64,000 nucleotides of DNA from Exiguobacterium profundum (GTDB lineage Bacteria; Bacillota; Bacilli; Exiguobacteriales; Exiguobacteriaceae): assembly GCF_001909285.1 (NCBI RefSeq), contig NZ_MRSV01000001.1:825331-889330 (forward strand), read 5' to 3'. Position 1 is the first letter of the stretch, and each line of letters starts with the position of its first letter. Position numbers and translations under genes: made by a program. Shown here piece by piece: positions 21,087 through 42,056 of the stretch. The notes under the pieces are model-generated. The model was not told where the DNA came from and made no database searches. It saw nothing but the letters and a program-made list of their open reading frames with translations.

Positions 21087-22568
21087 ATGCGTTCATTTTG
21101 GATACTCGGCAACCAACTCTCGCACGAACTTGCGATGTTGAAGGATATGAAAGAAGATGACGTCATCGTCATGATTGAGGCGACATCACGCGCATCGTGG
21201 CGTCCGTACCATAAACAAAAGCTCGTCCTGATCTTCTCTGCGATGCGCCACTTTGCGGAAGAATTGCGTGATAAAGGATATACCGTAGATTACCACGAAG
21301 CGGATTCGTTCCAAGAGGCGTGGGACAACCATGTGAAACAGTACAATCCGGACGAAATTCATATCACCGCCGTCACGGACGAACCGATGGCGAAAAAACT
21401 GAAACAGTTCGGTAAGAAACATCACCTTGTCGAACATACGGATGTCCCGCTCTTCTACTTATCAAAAAAGGAAGCGACCGAGACGCTCGGAAATGAACCG
21501 TGGCGGATGGATCGTTTTTATCGTTACATGCGTAAGCGATTCGACGTATTACTCGAAGACGGGAAGCCTCGCGGTGGAAAATGGTCATTTGATACGGATA
21601 ACCGAAAACCACCGAAAGAAGGACTATCGTTTCCATCTGCCATCCATTTCCGTCCAGATTCGATCACGAAAGACGTCATCGAAAAAGTCGAGTCAACGTT
21701 CTCGGAGCATCCAGGAGAGGTGACCCCGTTCCATTGGCTGGTCACACATCATGAGGCGAGACGTGCGCTAAAACGGTTCGTAGAAGAGCGTCTTGAGACG
21801 TTCGGCCCGTATCAAGATGCGATGATGACGGATGAACCCGAGATGTCGCACAGCCTGTTGTCAGCTGCCATCAATATCGGTCTACTGACACCGCGAGAAG
21901 TCGTTGATGCGGCATGTCAGGCGGATGCACCGCTATCATCGATTGAAGGATTCGTCCGGCAAATCCTCGGTTGGCGGGAATATATGCGCGCCGTCTATCT
22001 CGCTGTCATGCCCGGTTATGAAGACGTGAACACGTTCAAGCATGAACGCGACTTACCGTCCTTCTTCTGGGATGCGAAGACGGATTTGAACTGTCTGCAT
22101 CAAAGTTTGAAACCGGTCGTCGCGCATGCCCACAATCATCATATCCAGCGACTGATGGTGCTCGGAAACTATGCGACATTGTTCGAGATTTCACCGCAAC
22201 AGACGAGCGACTGGTTCAACGAGATGTACATCGATGCCTATGACTGGGTCGTCTTACCGAACGTTCTTGGGATGGCCCTTCATGCGGACGGTGGAAAGCT
22301 CGCCACAAAACCGTATGTCGCTTCCGGAAAATATATCGACCGGATGAGTGACTACTGTCGAGATTGTCCATACAACCCGAAACATACGACAGAAGACGAC
22401 GCCTGTCCGTTCAACGCCCTCTATTGGCGGTTCATCGATCGTCACGAGGAACGATTCTCGAAAAACCAGCGGATGAAGATGATGGTCCGCAATTGGCAAG
22501 GACGGGATGATGATGTGAAATCCGATATCTTAGCGAAAGCCGAACAGACGTTGACCGATTCCCCGTGA
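21087..22568 (+). CDS. Iron-sulfur bacterial cryptochrome/(6-4) photolyase family protein
   Basis: The 493-residue product starts SFWILGNQLSHE, has the LGWREYMRAVY helix and ends with a Cys-rich C-terminal part (YCRDCPYNP then DACPF), together with Cys in LNCLHQS giving the four ligands expected for the 4Fe-4S cluster of the FeS-BCP class. This group uses FAD and blue light to repair (6-4) photoproducts. Length is normal (about 500). AAAGGAG precedes the ATG. It stands alone with its own terminator. Confidence 0.85.
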   Translation: MRSFWILGNQLSHELAMLKDMKEDDVIVMIEATSRASWRPYHKQKLVLIFSAMRHFAEELRDKGYTVDYHEADSFQEAWDNHVKQYNPDEIHITAVTDEPMAKKLKQFGKKHHLVEHTDVPLFYLSKKEATETLGNEPWRMDRFYRYMRKRFDVLLEDGKPRGGKWSFDTDNRKPPKEGLSFPSAIHFRPDSITKDVIEKVESTFSEHPGEVTPFHWLVTHHEARRALKRFVEERLETFGPYQDAMMTDEPEMSHSLLSAAINIGLLTPREVVDAACQADAPLSSIEGFVRQILGWREYMRAVYLAVMPGYEDVNTFKHERDLPSFFWDAKTDLNCLHQSLKPVVAHAHNHHIQRLMVLGNYATLFEISPQQTSDWFNEMYIDAYDWVVLPNVLGMALHADGGKLATKPYVASGKYIDRMSDYCRDCPYNPKHTTEDDACPFNALYWRFIDRHEERFSKNQRMKMMVRNWQGRDDDVKSDILAKAEQTLTDSP

Positions 22569-22581
22569 ATCGGTTTTTTTT
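22554..22581 (+). terminator. Terminator after the photolyase gene
   Basis: An 8-pair perfect hairpin with 5-base loop spans the stop codon region and ends in T8; its T run touches the first repeat of the candidate Pho box. Confidence 0.85.
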
Positions 22582-22642
22582 ACGTTCTCTTCATGAAACT
22601 TTGCGATTTCTTTATCGTGTCTTTACAATCGTTCGTTACGAT
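22579..22642 (+). promoter_or_regulatory. Candidate PhoP box array and promoter of glpP-ugp
   Basis: Hexamers beginning TT recur every 11 bases: TTTACG (22579), TTCATG (22590), TTGCGA (22601), TTATCG (22612) and TTACAA (22623, or TTTACA one base earlier). This resembles Bacillus PhoP sites, direct repeats of TT(A/T/C)A(C/T)A with about 5 bases between. TACGAT at 22637-22642 would be the -10 box, which puts the repeats upstream of about -20 as expected for activation. Confidence 0.5.
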
Positions 22643-22698
22643 AGGAGCTGTGAGACCCCCTCACTCCAAGTGAATAGTTACCGGTAGAACCTTTGAGA

Positions 22699-22751
22699 GA
22701 CCAACAGAAGCCCGTACGTCGATGACGTGTCGTTTCTGTTGGTCCTTTTTT
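22699..22751 (+). promoter_or_regulatory. Leader terminator, probable GlpP antitermination target
   Basis: An 11-pair stem (22699-22709 with 22734-22744) with an internal small hairpin is followed by T6, and lies in the leader just before glpP. In Bacillus, GlpP bound to glycerol-3-phosphate prevents termination in leaders of glp genes; here the target would be upstream of glpP itself. Confidence 0.7.
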
Positions 22752-22769
22752 GAAGAGAGGTTGATTCAA

Positions 22770-23357
22770 GTGAATGAAGCGATTGCACGAATCGGACAAG
22801 AACGGATGATTGCCTCCATCAAAAGTCCAAAACAAATCGAGGCGTTTTTACGGACAGATGTGACGACGACGTTTCTCATGATGGGAACGCTCAGTACACT
22901 CGACCGCTATGTGGCGCACTTAAAACGAGAAAATCGAACGGTCTTCCTCCACGCTGAGCGAATCAATGGCATCAGCCTCGACCGGGACGGGATCGATTAC
23001 CTCGCCAAACGTGTCGGCGCCGATGGGATTGTCACGACGAAAGCATCCGTGCTCCAGCATGCGAAGCGAGCGGGGCTCTTGACGGTACAACGACTCTTTC
23101 TCGTCGACTCGGACGCGGTCACGAGCGGGCTCAAGCTCGCCGAGGCGCAACAACCGGATGCGATTGAACTCATGCCTGGTCTGATTCCGAGCGTCGTCGA
23201 GAAGATTTCTCGGGACGTCTCCTTTCCGATTGTGACAGGTGGCATGATTCGTCAACCGATTGACGTGCATCGCGCCCTCGATCATGGGGCATTCGCCGTA
23301 TCGACCGGGGATGAACGACTTTGGCACGTACAAAGTCAGAAGGAGGAATTAGCATGA
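22770..23357 (+). CDS. glpP: Glycerol-3-phosphate-responsive antiterminator GlpP
   Basis: The 195-residue product matches GlpP: MASIKSP-like start region, FLMMGTLSTLDRYVAHLK, FLHAERINGISLDRDGIDYLAKRVGADGIVTTKASVL, and IELMPGLIPSVVEKI followed by PIVTGGMI. It is a TIM-barrel RNA-binding protein that needs glycerol-3-phosphate. The GTG at 22770 is chosen because AGAGAGG lies 9 bases upstream. It overlaps ugpC by 4 bases (ATGA), so it is the first gene of the uptake operon. Confidence 0.9.
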   Translation: MNEAIARIGQERMIASIKSPKQIEAFLRTDVTTTFLMMGTLSTLDRYVAHLKRENRTVFLHAERINGISLDRDGIDYLAKRVGADGIVTTKASVLQHAKRAGLLTVQRLFLVDSDAVTSGLKLAEAQQPDAIELMPGLIPSVVEKISRDVSFPIVTGGMIRQPIDVHRALDHGAFAVSTGDERLWHVQSQKEELA

Positions 23358-24445
23358 AATCGATACAACTACAACAACTGGCGAAATCATTCGGGGAGAC
23401 GGAAATCATTCGAGGGATTGACGTGACGATTGAAGCAGGGGAGTTCTTCGCACTCGTCGGTCCGTCCGGCTGCGGGAAGAGTACGATGCTTCGGATGATA
23501 GCCGGGCTCGAATCCATCACAAGCGGAACGCTTCGCATCGACGGAGTGGCAGCAAACGGGATGAAGCCGAGTGAGCGTCACTTGTCGATGGTGTTCCAAA
23601 ACTATGCCCTTTACCCACATATGACGGTTGAGAAAAATATCACGTTCGGTCTACATACGAAAGGACTGACGAAGCTTGAACAGCGGGAGCGTTGCCTACA
23701 GGCGGCGGAGACACTCGGGCTCACCGATTACTTAAAACGGAAACCGCGCGAACTCTCCGGTGGTCAGCGACAGCGTGTCGCCTTGGCACGTGCCATCGTG
23801 ACCGAGGCACCCATTTGCCTGATGGATGAGCCGCTTTCGAACTTGGATGCGAAACTACGGGCAAAGATGCGTTCAGAGATTCGCCAGTTACAGCGAAAAC
23901 TCGGACTGACGATGATTTATGTCACCCACGACCAAGTCGAGGCGATGACGATGGCGGACCGCATCATGCTCCTCAATGAGGGGGAAGTGCAACAAGTCGG
24001 GAAGCCGCTCGACTTATACAATAAACCGGCGAATACATTCGTCGCTTCTTTCATCGGATCACCTCCGATGAATCTAGTCGACGTGACACGACAAGAAAAA
24101 GGCTGGATGGCATCAGACGGGCGAATGTTTGATCCGAACACATTGACGGAGATGTCACAGGCGACACTCGGTGTCCGTCCTGAGCAAATAAAGCCGGCGG
24201 ATGAAGATGTGACGTTTTACGCAGAACTGAAGAATATTGAAGTGCTCGGGACCGAGACAATTCTCGCTTTTGACATCGGGGGGAATGAATGGTTGGCAAA
24301 ATGGCCGGGACAATGGCCGCTTACGGTCGGTAAAAAAGTGGCGTGTTATGTGGATCCGAAACAGATGTCGCTATTTGATACGAACGGACAGCGCATAGAG
24401 CCACGACAACCGAAACTGTTTGAGGCGTTGGAGGTGTTCCAATGA
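23354..24445 (+). CDS. ugpC: Glycerol-3-phosphate ABC transporter ATPase
   Basis: The 363-residue product is a sugar-type (CUT1) ABC ATPase: Walker A GPSGCGKST, signature LSGGQRQRVALARA, Walker B CLMDEPLSNLDAK, and a C-terminal TOBE regulatory domain. AAGGAGG is upstream of the ATG at 23354. The sugar or phosphate specificity comes from its neighbours: glpP before and ugpA, ugpE, ugpB, ugpQ after. Confidence 0.9.
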   Translation: MKSIQLQQLAKSFGETEIIRGIDVTIEAGEFFALVGPSGCGKSTMLRMIAGLESITSGTLRIDGVAANGMKPSERHLSMVFQNYALYPHMTVEKNITFGLHTKGLTKLEQRERCLQAAETLGLTDYLKRKPRELSGGQRQRVALARAIVTEAPICLMDEPLSNLDAKLRAKMRSEIRQLQRKLGLTMIYVTHDQVEAMTMADRIMLLNEGEVQQVGKPLDLYNKPANTFVASFIGSPPMNLVDVTRQEKGWMASDGRMFDPNTLTEMSQATLGVRPEQIKPADEDVTFYAELKNIEVLGTETILAFDIGGNEWLAKWPGQWPLTVGKKVACYVDPKQMSLFDTNGQRIEPRQPKLFEALEVFQ

Positions 24446-25347
24446 CGGTCGCCTTACCGAGAGAGAAAGTCCGGACGCGGCTATCTGACGCAGCGAGCGG
24501 ATTGTTGTACTTGTCTCCGTCTATCATCTTGTTTGGTGTCTTCCTCGTCTATCCACTGTTGCGAACGATTTATTTAAGCTTTTTCCGGACCGACTCACAG
24601 GGGACACCACTCGACTTTGTCGGAGTCGGGCACTATAGCAATTTGTTCACGAGTGCGGCATTTTGGCAAAGCATTCAGGCGACAGTCGGATTCGTCCTTT
24701 TGACGGTCCCGCTCACGATTTTGATTGCGCTCGGTCTCGCACTCCTCGCCAATGAGAAACTGAAAGGGATCGGTATTTTTCGGACGGTTTTCTCGGCGAC
24801 GATGGGGATGAGCGTCGCGGCGTCATCGGTCATCTGGATGTTTATGTACAATCCGTCGATTGGTATCTTCAACCGGTTCCTCGAGGCTGTGGGGGCAAGT
24901 GGTGTACAGTGGCTCCTCGATCCACAATATGCGCTCCTTTCCGTGTCACTTGCGACCGTTTGGATGAATATCGGCTTCACCTTCTTGATTCTACTCGGCG
25001 GTCTGCAGAACATCGATCGGACGTTGTATGAGAGTGCGGACATTGCCGGGACGAGTTATTGGACGCAACTTCGGGCCATCACCATCCCGATGTTGTCACC
25101 GACACTTTTCTTCGTCGGGATCATCTCGCTGATCAACGCCTTCCAGACGTTTGGACAGATTGATTTATTGACGAAAGGTGGACCGACGAATGCGACGAAT
25201 GTCATCGTCTATGCCATCTACAAAGATGCGTTTATCAATTATAACGTCGGCAGTGCCAGTGCCCAGGCCGTGCTCTTATTCATCGCCGTCCTTCTGTTGA
25301 CGTGGCTCCAGTTCAAACTGGTCGAAAGGAAGGTGCATTACCAATGA
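24442..25347 (+). CDS. ugpA: Glycerol-3-phosphate ABC transporter permease
   Basis: The 301-residue membrane protein has six predicted helices and the EAA loop (ESADIAGTSYWTQLRAITIPML) that contacts the ATPase. It overlaps ugpC by 4 bases and ugpE by 4 bases, showing translational coupling. Confidence 0.88.
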   Translation: MTVALPREKVRTRLSDAASGLLYLSPSIILFGVFLVYPLLRTIYLSFFRTDSQGTPLDFVGVGHYSNLFTSAAFWQSIQATVGFVLLTVPLTILIALGLALLANEKLKGIGIFRTVFSATMGMSVAASSVIWMFMYNPSIGIFNRFLEAVGASGVQWLLDPQYALLSVSLATVWMNIGFTFLILLGGLQNIDRTLYESADIAGTSYWTQLRAITIPMLSPTLFFVGIISLINAFQTFGQIDLLTKGGPTNATNVIVYAIYKDAFINYNVGSASAQAVLLFIAVLLLTWLQFKLVERKVHYQ

Positions 25348-26153
25348 GATTACGGAATATAGGCGTCTATGTCTTACTCATCCTGAGTGCCGTCGTCATG
25401 CTGTTTCCAATCGCCTATGCGTTTTCGATCAGTCTGATGGACGGGAAGGAAGTGCTCCAGGGACATCTCCTTCCACGTGAACCTTCATTGGAAAACTATG
25501 TGGCCGCGTTCGAACGCATCCCGATGATGACGTACCTGCTCAACAGTTTGATTGTCGCGCTCCTCGTGATGGTTGGACAGGTCGTATTATCGAGTCTTGC
25601 AGCATTCGCGTTCGTCTTCATCGACTTTAAAGGAAAAGGGCTCATCTTTATGCTTTTCCTGGCGACGATGATGGTGCCATGGGAAGCGACGATGGTCCCG
25701 AACTTTTTGACAATCCAGTCGCTCGGTTGGCTGAATAGTGTTTGGGGACTGTCTGTGCCGTTCTTCGCACTCGCATTCGGGACGTTTTTACTTCGGCAAC
25801 AGTTCAAAACGATTCCGTATGAAATGTACGAGGCTTCCCAAATTGCCGGTATCAGTCGCTTCCGATTCTTTTGGAACGTCGTCTTGCCGGTATCGAAGAC
25901 ACCGCTCGTCACATTGTCGGTGTATAGCTTTTTGACGACTTGGAATATGTACTTATGGCCGCTTCTCGTCACGAACACGGAACAGGCGCGGACAGTCCAA
26001 ATCGGCATCAAACAGATGCAGTCGAACGAAGTCGCCTCGGATTGGGGCGTCGTCATGGCAGCAGTCATCTTGATTATCATTCCGACACTTGTATTGTTGT
26101 TCGCAGGACAAAAGCACTTGCAAGAAGGATTGACGCAAGGCGCTATCAAATAA
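25344..26153 (+). CDS. ugpE: Glycerol-3-phosphate ABC transporter permease
   Basis: The 269-residue protein is the second CUT1 permease, with six helices and the EAA loop (YEASQIAGISRFRFFWNVVLPV). AAGGAAGG lies upstream of the ATG at 25344, which overlaps the ugpA stop. Confidence 0.88.
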   Translation: MRLRNIGVYVLLILSAVVMLFPIAYAFSISLMDGKEVLQGHLLPREPSLENYVAAFERIPMMTYLLNSLIVALLVMVGQVVLSSLAAFAFVFIDFKGKGLIFMLFLATMMVPWEATMVPNFLTIQSLGWLNSVWGLSVPFFALAFGTFLLRQQFKTIPYEMYEASQIAGISRFRFFWNVVLPVSKTPLVTLSVYSFLTTWNMYLWPLLVTNTEQARTVQIGIKQMQSNEVASDWGVVMAAVILIIIPTLVLLFAGQKHLQEGLTQGAIK

Positions 26154-26169
26154 TAGGGGGATATGACAA

Positions 26170-27477
26170 ATGAAAAAGTTAGGATTATTCGCAGGGTTGG
26201 CAAGTTCGGTGTTATTACTCGGGGCATGTGGCAGTGAAGAAGCGGCACCAGTCGCGGCGACGACAGAAGACGGAAAGACAGAGGTCGTCTTTTGGCATGC
26301 GATGAGTGGGGACTTGGAGACGGCTTTAAACAGTCAAGTCGACGCGTTCAACGCTTCGCAAGACGACTATGAAGTCAAACCTGTCTTCCAAGGAACATAT
26401 GAGGAAGCGTTGACGAAATTCAATGCGGTCGCCGGTTCGGAAGACGCGCCAGCCATCATGCAGACGTTCGAGGTCGGGACGAAATACATGATCGATTCGA
26501 ACAAAATCACACCAGTTCAAGAGTTCATCGACAAAGAGGATTTTGACACGAGCGTATGGGAAGAGAACATCTTGAGTTATTATCAGGTCGATGGGAAGCA
26601 ATACTCGATGCCGTTCAACTCCTCGACACCGATCCTCATCTATAACAAAGAGGCGTTTGAAAAAGCAGGGCTCGATCCAGAGAAAGCACCACGCACATAT
26701 GACGAGTTGAAAGAGGCGGCGAAGAAGTTGACAACGGACGGTCAGACCGGCTTCACGATGCTCAACTACGGTTGGTTCTTTGAACAGCTCTTGGCCGCAC
26801 AAGGTGGACTGTATGTCGACAATGACAATGGACGAAGCGGAGACCCGACGAAAGCCGTGTTTGATGGCGAAGAAGGACAGAACGCGTTCAATCTCATCAA
26901 AGAGATGTACGATGAGAAGACATTCCTAAACGTCGGTCAAAACTGGGACGACATGCGCGCGGCATTCCAATCTGGGAAAGTTGCCATGTACCTTGATTCG
27001 TCAGCAGGAATCCGTACGGTAGCAGACAACGCGGACTTTGAAATCGGCGCATCGTACTTACCGGTACCGAATGAAGCGGAGCGTCAAGGCGTCGTCATCG
27101 GCGGGGCATCGCTCTGGATGGGTGATGGCATTGCCGAAGAGACGAAAGAAGGCGCATGGGAGTTCATGAAGTATGTCGCTTCAACGGAAGCGCAAGCACA
27201 GTGGCATGTTGACACAGGCTACTTCGCCATCAATCCGGAAGCATACAATGAACCGATCGTAAAAGAAATGTGGGCGAAATATCCACAACTGAAAGTGACG
27301 GTCGACCAACTCAGTGAGACGAAACCATCACCGGCGACACAAGGAGCGCTCATCTCGACGTTCCCGCAATCACGTCAAAGTGTCGTCAACGCGATGGAAA
27401 GTTTGTATCAAGGGGTGTCGGTCGAAGAAGCATTGAAGCGTGCGGCCGATGAGACGACTTCCACCTTGGGGCAGTGA
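26170..27477 (+). CDS. ugpB: Glycerol-3-phosphate ABC transporter substrate-binding lipoprotein
   Basis: The 435-residue product has a lipoprotein signal peptide with lipobox LLGAC (Cys17) and a family-1 extracellular solute-binding fold (VVFWHAMSGDLETALNSQVDAFNAS, TEAQAQWHVDTGYFAINPEA). It captures glycerol-3-phosphate or glycerophosphodiesters at the outer face; the substrate assignment is by context with glpP and ugpQ. GGGGGA precedes the ATG. Confidence 0.88.
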   Translation: MKKLGLFAGLASSVLLLGACGSEEAAPVAATTEDGKTEVVFWHAMSGDLETALNSQVDAFNASQDDYEVKPVFQGTYEEALTKFNAVAGSEDAPAIMQTFEVGTKYMIDSNKITPVQEFIDKEDFDTSVWEENILSYYQVDGKQYSMPFNSSTPILIYNKEAFEKAGLDPEKAPRTYDELKEAAKKLTTDGQTGFTMLNYGWFFEQLLAAQGGLYVDNDNGRSGDPTKAVFDGEEGQNAFNLIKEMYDEKTFLNVGQNWDDMRAAFQSGKVAMYLDSSAGIRTVADNADFEIGASYLPVPNEAERQGVVIGGASLWMGDGIAEETKEGAWEFMKYVASTEAQAQWHVDTGYFAINPEAYNEPIVKEMWAKYPQLKVTVDQLSETKPSPATQGALISTFPQSRQSVVNAMESLYQGVSVEEALKRAADETTSTLGQ

Positions 27478-27478
27478 C

Positions 27479-28153
27479 ATGTTGATTTACGCACATCGCG
27501 GCTATAGCGCCAATTACCCGGAAAATACATTGTCCGCGTTCGAGGCAGCTCTTCCCTATGTGGACGGGATCGAGCTGGACGTACAGCTATCGAAGGACGG
27601 GCGTCTCGTCGTCATTCATGACGAAACCGTCGACCGGACGACAAATGGAACGGGATGGGTGAAAGACATGACGCTTCAGGAGTTGCGCCAGTTGAAGATT
27701 GACGGCTATGAACGCATCCCAACGTTAGAAGAGGTGCTCGGACTGATTGAACGAAGCAACGTCACCCTGAACATCGAATTGAAGACGGATCAATATGCGT
27801 ATCCAGGGATTGAACGTCTCGCTTGGTTTGCTGTCAACGAGTTTGAACTCGGTGACCGTGTCGTGTTCTCCTCATTCAATCGTGAAACGCTCGTCCGAAT
27901 GCGAGATGTGGCACCAGTCGCCCGGCTTGCGGTGTTGACACTCACGGGTGAGTCGGACACCGTCTCGTTCGCTGAAACGATTCGGGCCGAGGCGATTCAC
28001 GCCCAGCCTGCATTTATCGGTTCGAAAGCATGGGATCAGATACAACAGACGACGCTCGAGACACGGCTCTACACGATCAACGACGTGAAGGACCTTCCCC
28101 CGATAACAGTTTCGGCCATCATGACAGATGAGGTTGAACGGTTTACAAAATGA
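27479..28153 (+). CDS. ugpQ: Glycerophosphodiester phosphodiesterase
   Basis: The 224-residue enzyme has the GDPD motifs AHRGYSANYPENT and IELDVQLSKDGRLVVIHDETVDRTTNG, including the catalytic His pair and metal-binding Glu/Asp. It has no signal peptide, so it acts in the cytoplasm on imported glycerophosphodiesters, releasing glycerol-3-phosphate, which would also activate GlpP. It starts right after the ugpB stop. Confidence 0.92.
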   Translation: MLIYAHRGYSANYPENTLSAFEAALPYVDGIELDVQLSKDGRLVVIHDETVDRTTNGTGWVKDMTLQELRQLKIDGYERIPTLEEVLGLIERSNVTLNIELKTDQYAYPGIERLAWFAVNEFELGDRVVFSSFNRETLVRMRDVAPVARLAVLTLTGESDTVSFAETIRAEAIHAQPAFIGSKAWDQIQQTTLETRLYTINDVKDLPPITVSAIMTDEVERFTK

Positions 28154-41894: not shown

Positions 41895-42056
41895 TTGAAA
41901 TCTTTTCGCCGAGTTCCGGAGACGGAAGCGGGGGACCCACCGTCCAATCTGGACTGGGGTGAATCCTCAAGTGAGGTAGGGCCAACCTAGGCAAGCCCGA
42001 ATCCGACAGCTAACCTCGTAGGCGTTATTAGGGGGATCCGACTCATGCAGTGATAT
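41895..42056 (+). promoter_or_regulatory. c-di-AMP riboswitch (ydaO/yuaA class)
   Basis: The conserved blocks of this class are present in order: GCCGAG at 41908, GGGTGAATCC at about 41957, GGTAGGGCC at about 41975, and the long conserved 3' block CCGAATCCGACAGCTAACC then CTCGTAGGCG (41998-42024), followed by AGGGGGAT. In Bacillus, c-di-AMP binding turns off potassium uptake genes; an intrinsic terminator follows directly here. Confidence 0.92.

Follow-up and report, generated by a model that had tools for sequence, protein, structure and literature searches.

Introduction

Pho boxes and antitermination by GlpP are both textbook subjects, and Bacillus subtilis possesses a single GlpP. In this species glpD and glpF are under GlpP control (PMC9604022), glpTQ has a terminator controlled by the same protein (PMC9604022) and GlpQ is PhoPR-dependent (PMC6232261). 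B. subtilis glpTQ appears, then, already to combine control by PhoPR and GlpP (PMC6232261, PMC9604022), and because of this precedent the principle of double control is not a new one.

In this work, we analyse a 64 kb stretch of DNA (the window) from a 2.9 Mb Exiguobacterium genome, for which an earlier note had proposed Pho boxes and a GlpP antitermination leader ahead of a glpP-ugp operon. Independent comparative tests back both candidate sites and support that reading as largely right: the glpP-ugpCAEBQ operon is very probably subject to two controls in series, a PhoP-dependent promoter and a terminator governed by GlpP and glycerol-3-phosphate (G3P), with a predicted reinforcing loop. Both kinds of lock are known. 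Their conserved pairing ahead of glpP itself appears to be undescribed; a literature search, conducted mostly outside the subscription journals, found no description of a ugp operon under Pho and GlpP control in Exiguobacterium or other Bacilli.

The operon and its setting

Pfam and NCBIfam models give the gene order glpP-ugpC-ugpA-ugpE-ugpB-ugpQ (22770-28153; Table 1), a single operon holding a Ugp importer set of UgpC, UgpB, the permeases and UgpQ. UgpC scores above its cut-off (444 vs 432); UgpB is the best match, yet falls below the equivalog cut-off (264 vs 411). Judging from protein family and from the neighbouring ugpQ and glpP genes, the operon probably imports G3P or glycerophosphodiesters. 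UgpQ belongs to the glycerophosphodiester phosphodiesterases (GDPDs) and, because it has no evident signal peptide, is consistent with release of G3P inside the cell. The GlpP encoded in the operon matches PF04309 with 194 bits (cut-off 27) and has relatives of solved structure (3kts, 1vkf). Elsewhere in the window, a c-di-AMP riboswitch (ydaO/yuaA leader) is found at 41897-42039 (94 bits).

Table 1. Features of the glpP-ugp locus, in window coordinates
Feature	Position	Strand	Remarks
Photolyase-related gene	21087-22568	+	Upstream of the operon
Terminator of photolyase-related gene	22553-22580	+	T-run overlaps first Pho hexamer
Pho-box ladder, five boxes (predicted)	22579-22627	+	From scoring and genus alignment; last four are the conserved core
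-10 box TACGAT (predicted)	22637-22642	+	9 nt past last Pho box
Small 5' hairpin GTGAG-ACCCC-CTCAC	22650-22664	+	From folding; start of transcript
GlpP box, proposed antiterminator	22666-22702	+	AAGTGAATA at 22668-22676
GlpP-box stem	GGT 22683-22685 / ACC 22700-22702	+	Loop with GAAC 22687-22690 and GAGA 22695-22698
Intrinsic terminator	22699-22751	+	5' arm 22699-22711, inner hairpin, 3' arm 22732-22744
Terminator T-run TTTTTT	22746-22751	+	
glpP	22770-23357	+	G3P-responsive antiterminator, ugp-associated clade; GTG start
ugpC	23354-24445	+	ABC transporter ATPase
ugpA	24442-25347	+	Permease
ugpE	25344-26153	+	Permease
ugpB	26170-27477	+	Substrate-binding lipoprotein
ugpQ	27482-28153	+	Glycerophosphodiester phosphodiesterase; signal peptide judged by eye

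A predicted Pho-box ladder specific to ugp promoters

The five hexamers beginning with TT that had been described at 11-nt steps are indeed present (22579, 22590, 22601, 22612 and 22623), and a better-fitting frame common to the genus reads TTTACG (22579), TTCATG (22590), TTTGCG (22600), TTTATC (22611) and TTTACA (22622). The first hexamer coincides with the T-run that terminates the upstream gene, and not all species have it, so the other four form the robust core. Repeats of this kind upstream of a -10 box are the layout of Bacillus-type Pho promoters. The -10 box has no good -35 partner, and transcription would start at about 22649. A second candidate -10, TACAAT at 22624-22629, was preferred by the promoter scanner; it was set aside in favour of TACGAT because it overlaps the last Pho box and because the 9-nt spacing seen in relatives fits TACGAT.

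Scored as four boxes against TTHAYA at 11-nt steps (maximum 24), the window ladder reaches 19, a score attained by none of 200 shuffles (15.2 +/- 0.9). When the 64 kb was scanned on both strands for ladder, 9-nt gap and -10 box jointly, the operon site came narrowly top with 23, the runner-up scoring 22. Two of the window boxes are imperfect (TTTGCG, TTTATC), and by itself the window ladder is significant but modest. Across the genome, the Pho-hexamer pattern is no commoner than its control, and the ladder was therefore assessed by position and conservation.

Comparison between genomes, rather than the window alone, is decisive for the predicted Pho ladder. The mean ladder z is 3.95 in 26 glpP-ugp or ugp leaders, drawn from several family groups of Bacilli, vs 0.65 in 18 glpD/glpF leaders, most of which have ordinary promoters. 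When the gap between the last box and the -10 was left free to vary from 4 to 15 nt, 9 nt was picked in 18 of 25 ugp leaders, and the glp leaders scattered. The host pstS promoter, read by eye, carries TTTACA-TTTACG-TTTATT-TTAATA at 11-nt steps, then 9 nt and TAGGAT. These comparisons support a predicted PhoP site that is specific to ugp promoters, has a fixed geometry and recurs at pstS. A PhoP homologue and a PnpS-type PhoR are encoded ahead of polA in the host genome; the kinase scores 458 bits against a cut-off of 400, and the response regulator is named PhoP by context because, of the NCBIfam equivalog cut-offs shown, it passed none.

The interval between phoR and polA (L263 1501-1655; C1:1449459-1449613 in the host genome) is of separate interest, since it likely encodes a Pho-driven small RNA. 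A Pho ladder, a 9-nt gap and a -10 box precede about 100 nt with three hairpins, the last of them a terminator, and no evident ORF. The candidate occurs in every one of 19 Exiguobacterium genomes and its middle stem covaries. Its loops CUCUUCAUCAU and CUCAUCUC are rich in pyrimidines, hardly vary and look like anti-Shine-Dalgarno sequences; no Rfam family scored above threshold for it.

The proposed GlpP-box RNA element and the terminator

Alignment of the ugp leaders gives a conserved AAGTgrATA followed by GG..GAGA..GAGA.ACC leading into the terminator. The consensus thus comprises AAGT-rATA, a short stem round two GAGA motifs, and a 3' strand that doubles as the foot of the terminator. The same RNA element, overlapping the terminator foot, is found in several genomes in the leaders of glpD and glpF, host glpD included; unlike many Bacilli, the host has no GlpP box in the leader upstream of glpF (L149).

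The stem occurs as GGT/ACC, GGC/GCC, GGG/CCC, AAGGTT/AACCTT, GCTG/CAGC, GTGA/TCAC and TGGTC/GACCA. When 3' flanks were swapped between sequences in 10,000 permutations, none paired as well for all 38 sequences (z 6.3) or for the 20 ugp sequences alone, and 10 paired as well for the 18 glp sequences alone; since the stem had been noticed by eye in the same data before the test, and since related sequences overstate significance somewhat, we grade the covarying stem as well supported, not proven. Counting pairs in fixed columns of a MAFFT alignment gives a weaker result, with 74% of cells paired and the covariation score reached by 6 of 500 shuffles. In the window a stem of no more than 3 bp (GGT/ACC) is predicted and the first GAGA is changed to GAAC, which is why a regular pattern (AAGTRRAT..GAGA..GAGR) found no match in the host genome and was dropped for profile models.

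Trained on leaders of ugp, glpD and glpF, model R2 has two confident matches in the host genome, one lying in the leader of glpD (E 3e-4) and the other in that of ugp (E 0.002); its third-best match is noise (E 4.8). Matches occur in 108 of 398 genomes of the class. All 20 that were read from further genomes, taken outside the training loci with one or two near-copies of these among them (e.g. L246), precede a glpD-like gene (17) or glpF (3), in most cases with a terminator behind the element. An Rfam scan of ten GlpP leader loci and the window matched no family for the leader. A further copy of CAAGTGAAT, with which the GlpP box begins at its 5' side, lies over the glpP start codon (22767-22775); this copy is seen in Exiguobacterium, is absent in the other family examined and is probably due to chance.

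Folding bears out the strong terminator that the earlier note had placed just before glpP: a hairpin of -22.4 kcal/mol with a T-run, 18 nt from the GTG at 22770. An intrinsic terminator hence stands between promoter and first gene, as in GlpP-controlled leaders, and the leader as a whole has a folding z of -3.65 against shuffles. The foot of the terminator, GACC (22699-22702), overlaps the GlpP box, and the terminator arms change together across families. If the element is held unpaired in the folding, this GACC included, the upper hairpin remains and lies apart from the T-run. Box, terminator and glpP are kept in all the Exiguobacterium glpP-ugp copies examined.

Two GlpP proteins and two box variants

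Two PF04309 proteins are encoded by the host genome, the second being a canonical GlpP specified elsewhere. In a tree of 67 GlpP proteins, 31 of the 34 associated with leaders fall, with two others, in one clade (support 100/99) that stands apart from the canonical GlpPs. The boxes differ too: read by eye, 26 of 26 ugp boxes have AAGT[G/A] or AAGCG and about 34 of 38 glp boxes have AAGTT. The sole congener without ugp-type glpP (G001) has a glpD box only and no ugp box. In another genome (G272) an intact ugp leader lies directly before ugpC and the only GlpP belongs to another clade, which speaks against strict specificity of GlpP for its box. We suggest, tentatively and as rather less than an even prospect, that a GlpP subfamily dedicated to the phosphate response opens its own Pho-controlled leader by reading AAGTG/A and not AAGTT; if so, two GlpP-RNA pairs would operate in parallel within the same cell. 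Because the box comes in two variants, such paralogue specificity can be tested. L051-L055 represent a separate GlpP-like clade. Four of the five lie beside ugpA, ugpE and ugpB, which were not found in L055; upstream there are Pho-like hexamers and no GlpP box.

The arrangement is present in Exiguobacterium, Aneurinibacillus, Brevibacillus and the families f14, f15, f20, f21 and f22. In G070 and in a second operon of G217, ugp genes with no leading glpP stand behind the same promoter and box. Pho ladder and GlpP box are also kept in ugp leaders that lack an intact glpP: L082 has no glpP, L087 retains a C-terminal piece of it, and in L166 the gene is split. At L180 (G217) and L094 (5150-9632), a GlpP box with the stem GGGC/GCCC and a Pho-like ladder precede genes for a HAD-phosphatase, ugpC, ugpB and ugpA, again with no glpP.

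A model of serial control and its alternatives

In the model that we favour, phosphorylated PhoP (PhoP~P) would bind the 11-nt direct repeats, four or five in number, that immediately precede the -10 box, and transcription would begin only under phosphate starvation. Only where G3P-bound GlpP holds AAGTGAATA...GGT[..GAGA]ACC would the RNA extend past the terminator that precedes glpP. With the 3' strand held, the foot GACC would be withdrawn from the terminator, and the remaining hairpin would still form without abutting the T-run; GlpP would need to hold only the foot, because the upper hairpin that is left no longer adjoins the T-run. The predicted output is that of an AND gate. Once open, the operon would yield GlpP, the importer and UgpQ, which could release G3P inside the cell, so that low phosphate together with substrate would reinforce expression until phosphate recovers.

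The loop need not be closed, however, because the second, canonical GlpP could open the ugp terminator in trans. It may be that Pho control is real, that it is mainly the canonical GlpP that opens the terminator and that the GlpP encoded in the operon has another target or only adds to the dose, an arrangement that we consider rather unlikely. The presence of the second GlpP in the host genome is in its favour, as is G272, whose intact leader and GlpP of another clade suggest action in trans. It fits less well with the co-occurrence of ugp-type GlpP and ugp-type box in Exiguobacterium, both missing together from G001, and with the one-position difference between ugp and glp boxes.

Two further possibilities concern the leader and the promoter. 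PMC9604022 and PMC3997798 cite a paper (Glatz 1996) whose title indicates that GlpP also affects the stability of glpD mRNA in B. subtilis, so that the ugp leader might act chiefly on mRNA stability, or might be a fixed attenuator in which antitermination dependent on G3P plays little part. We think this improbable: the overlap of element and terminator foot is kept while the sequences change, as would be expected of an antiterminator. That the 11-nt ladder might be chance, or a feature of AT-rich promoters, and not a set of PhoP sites is a suspicion raised by the only moderately unusual score of the window and by the genome-wide scan. It becomes very hard to maintain once it is seen that the ladder is common to ugp leaders across families and absent from glpD/glpF promoters, and that the 9-nt spacing is fixed and the layout shared with pstS.

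Comparison with known systems

The locus offers a natural and testable case of an initiation signal and RNA antitermination placed in series in an operon that encodes its own antiterminator. The proposed GlpP target consensus, with its covarying stem, two GAGA motifs and 3' strand within the terminator foot, may also make GlpP regulons readable from genomes.

The B. subtilis glpTQ operon resembles glpP-ugp in joining genes for a G3P transporter and a GDPD behind a GlpP-controlled terminator; it differs in that transport is by GlpT rather than by the Ugp ABC system, GlpQ is extracellular and glpP lies outside the operon. The B. subtilis glpD and glpFK leaders are alike in the element, which (as read in other Bacilli) lies upstream of the terminator and overlaps its foot, whereas glpD/glpF leaders have no Pho ladder, carry the AAGTT box variant and precede catabolic genes. 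E. coli ugpBAECQ is the same uptake operon and likewise combines membership of the Pho regulon with a second signal, but there the second signal is carbon starvation, acting via CRP at a separate promoter and with no RNA antiterminator in series (PMC4415409).
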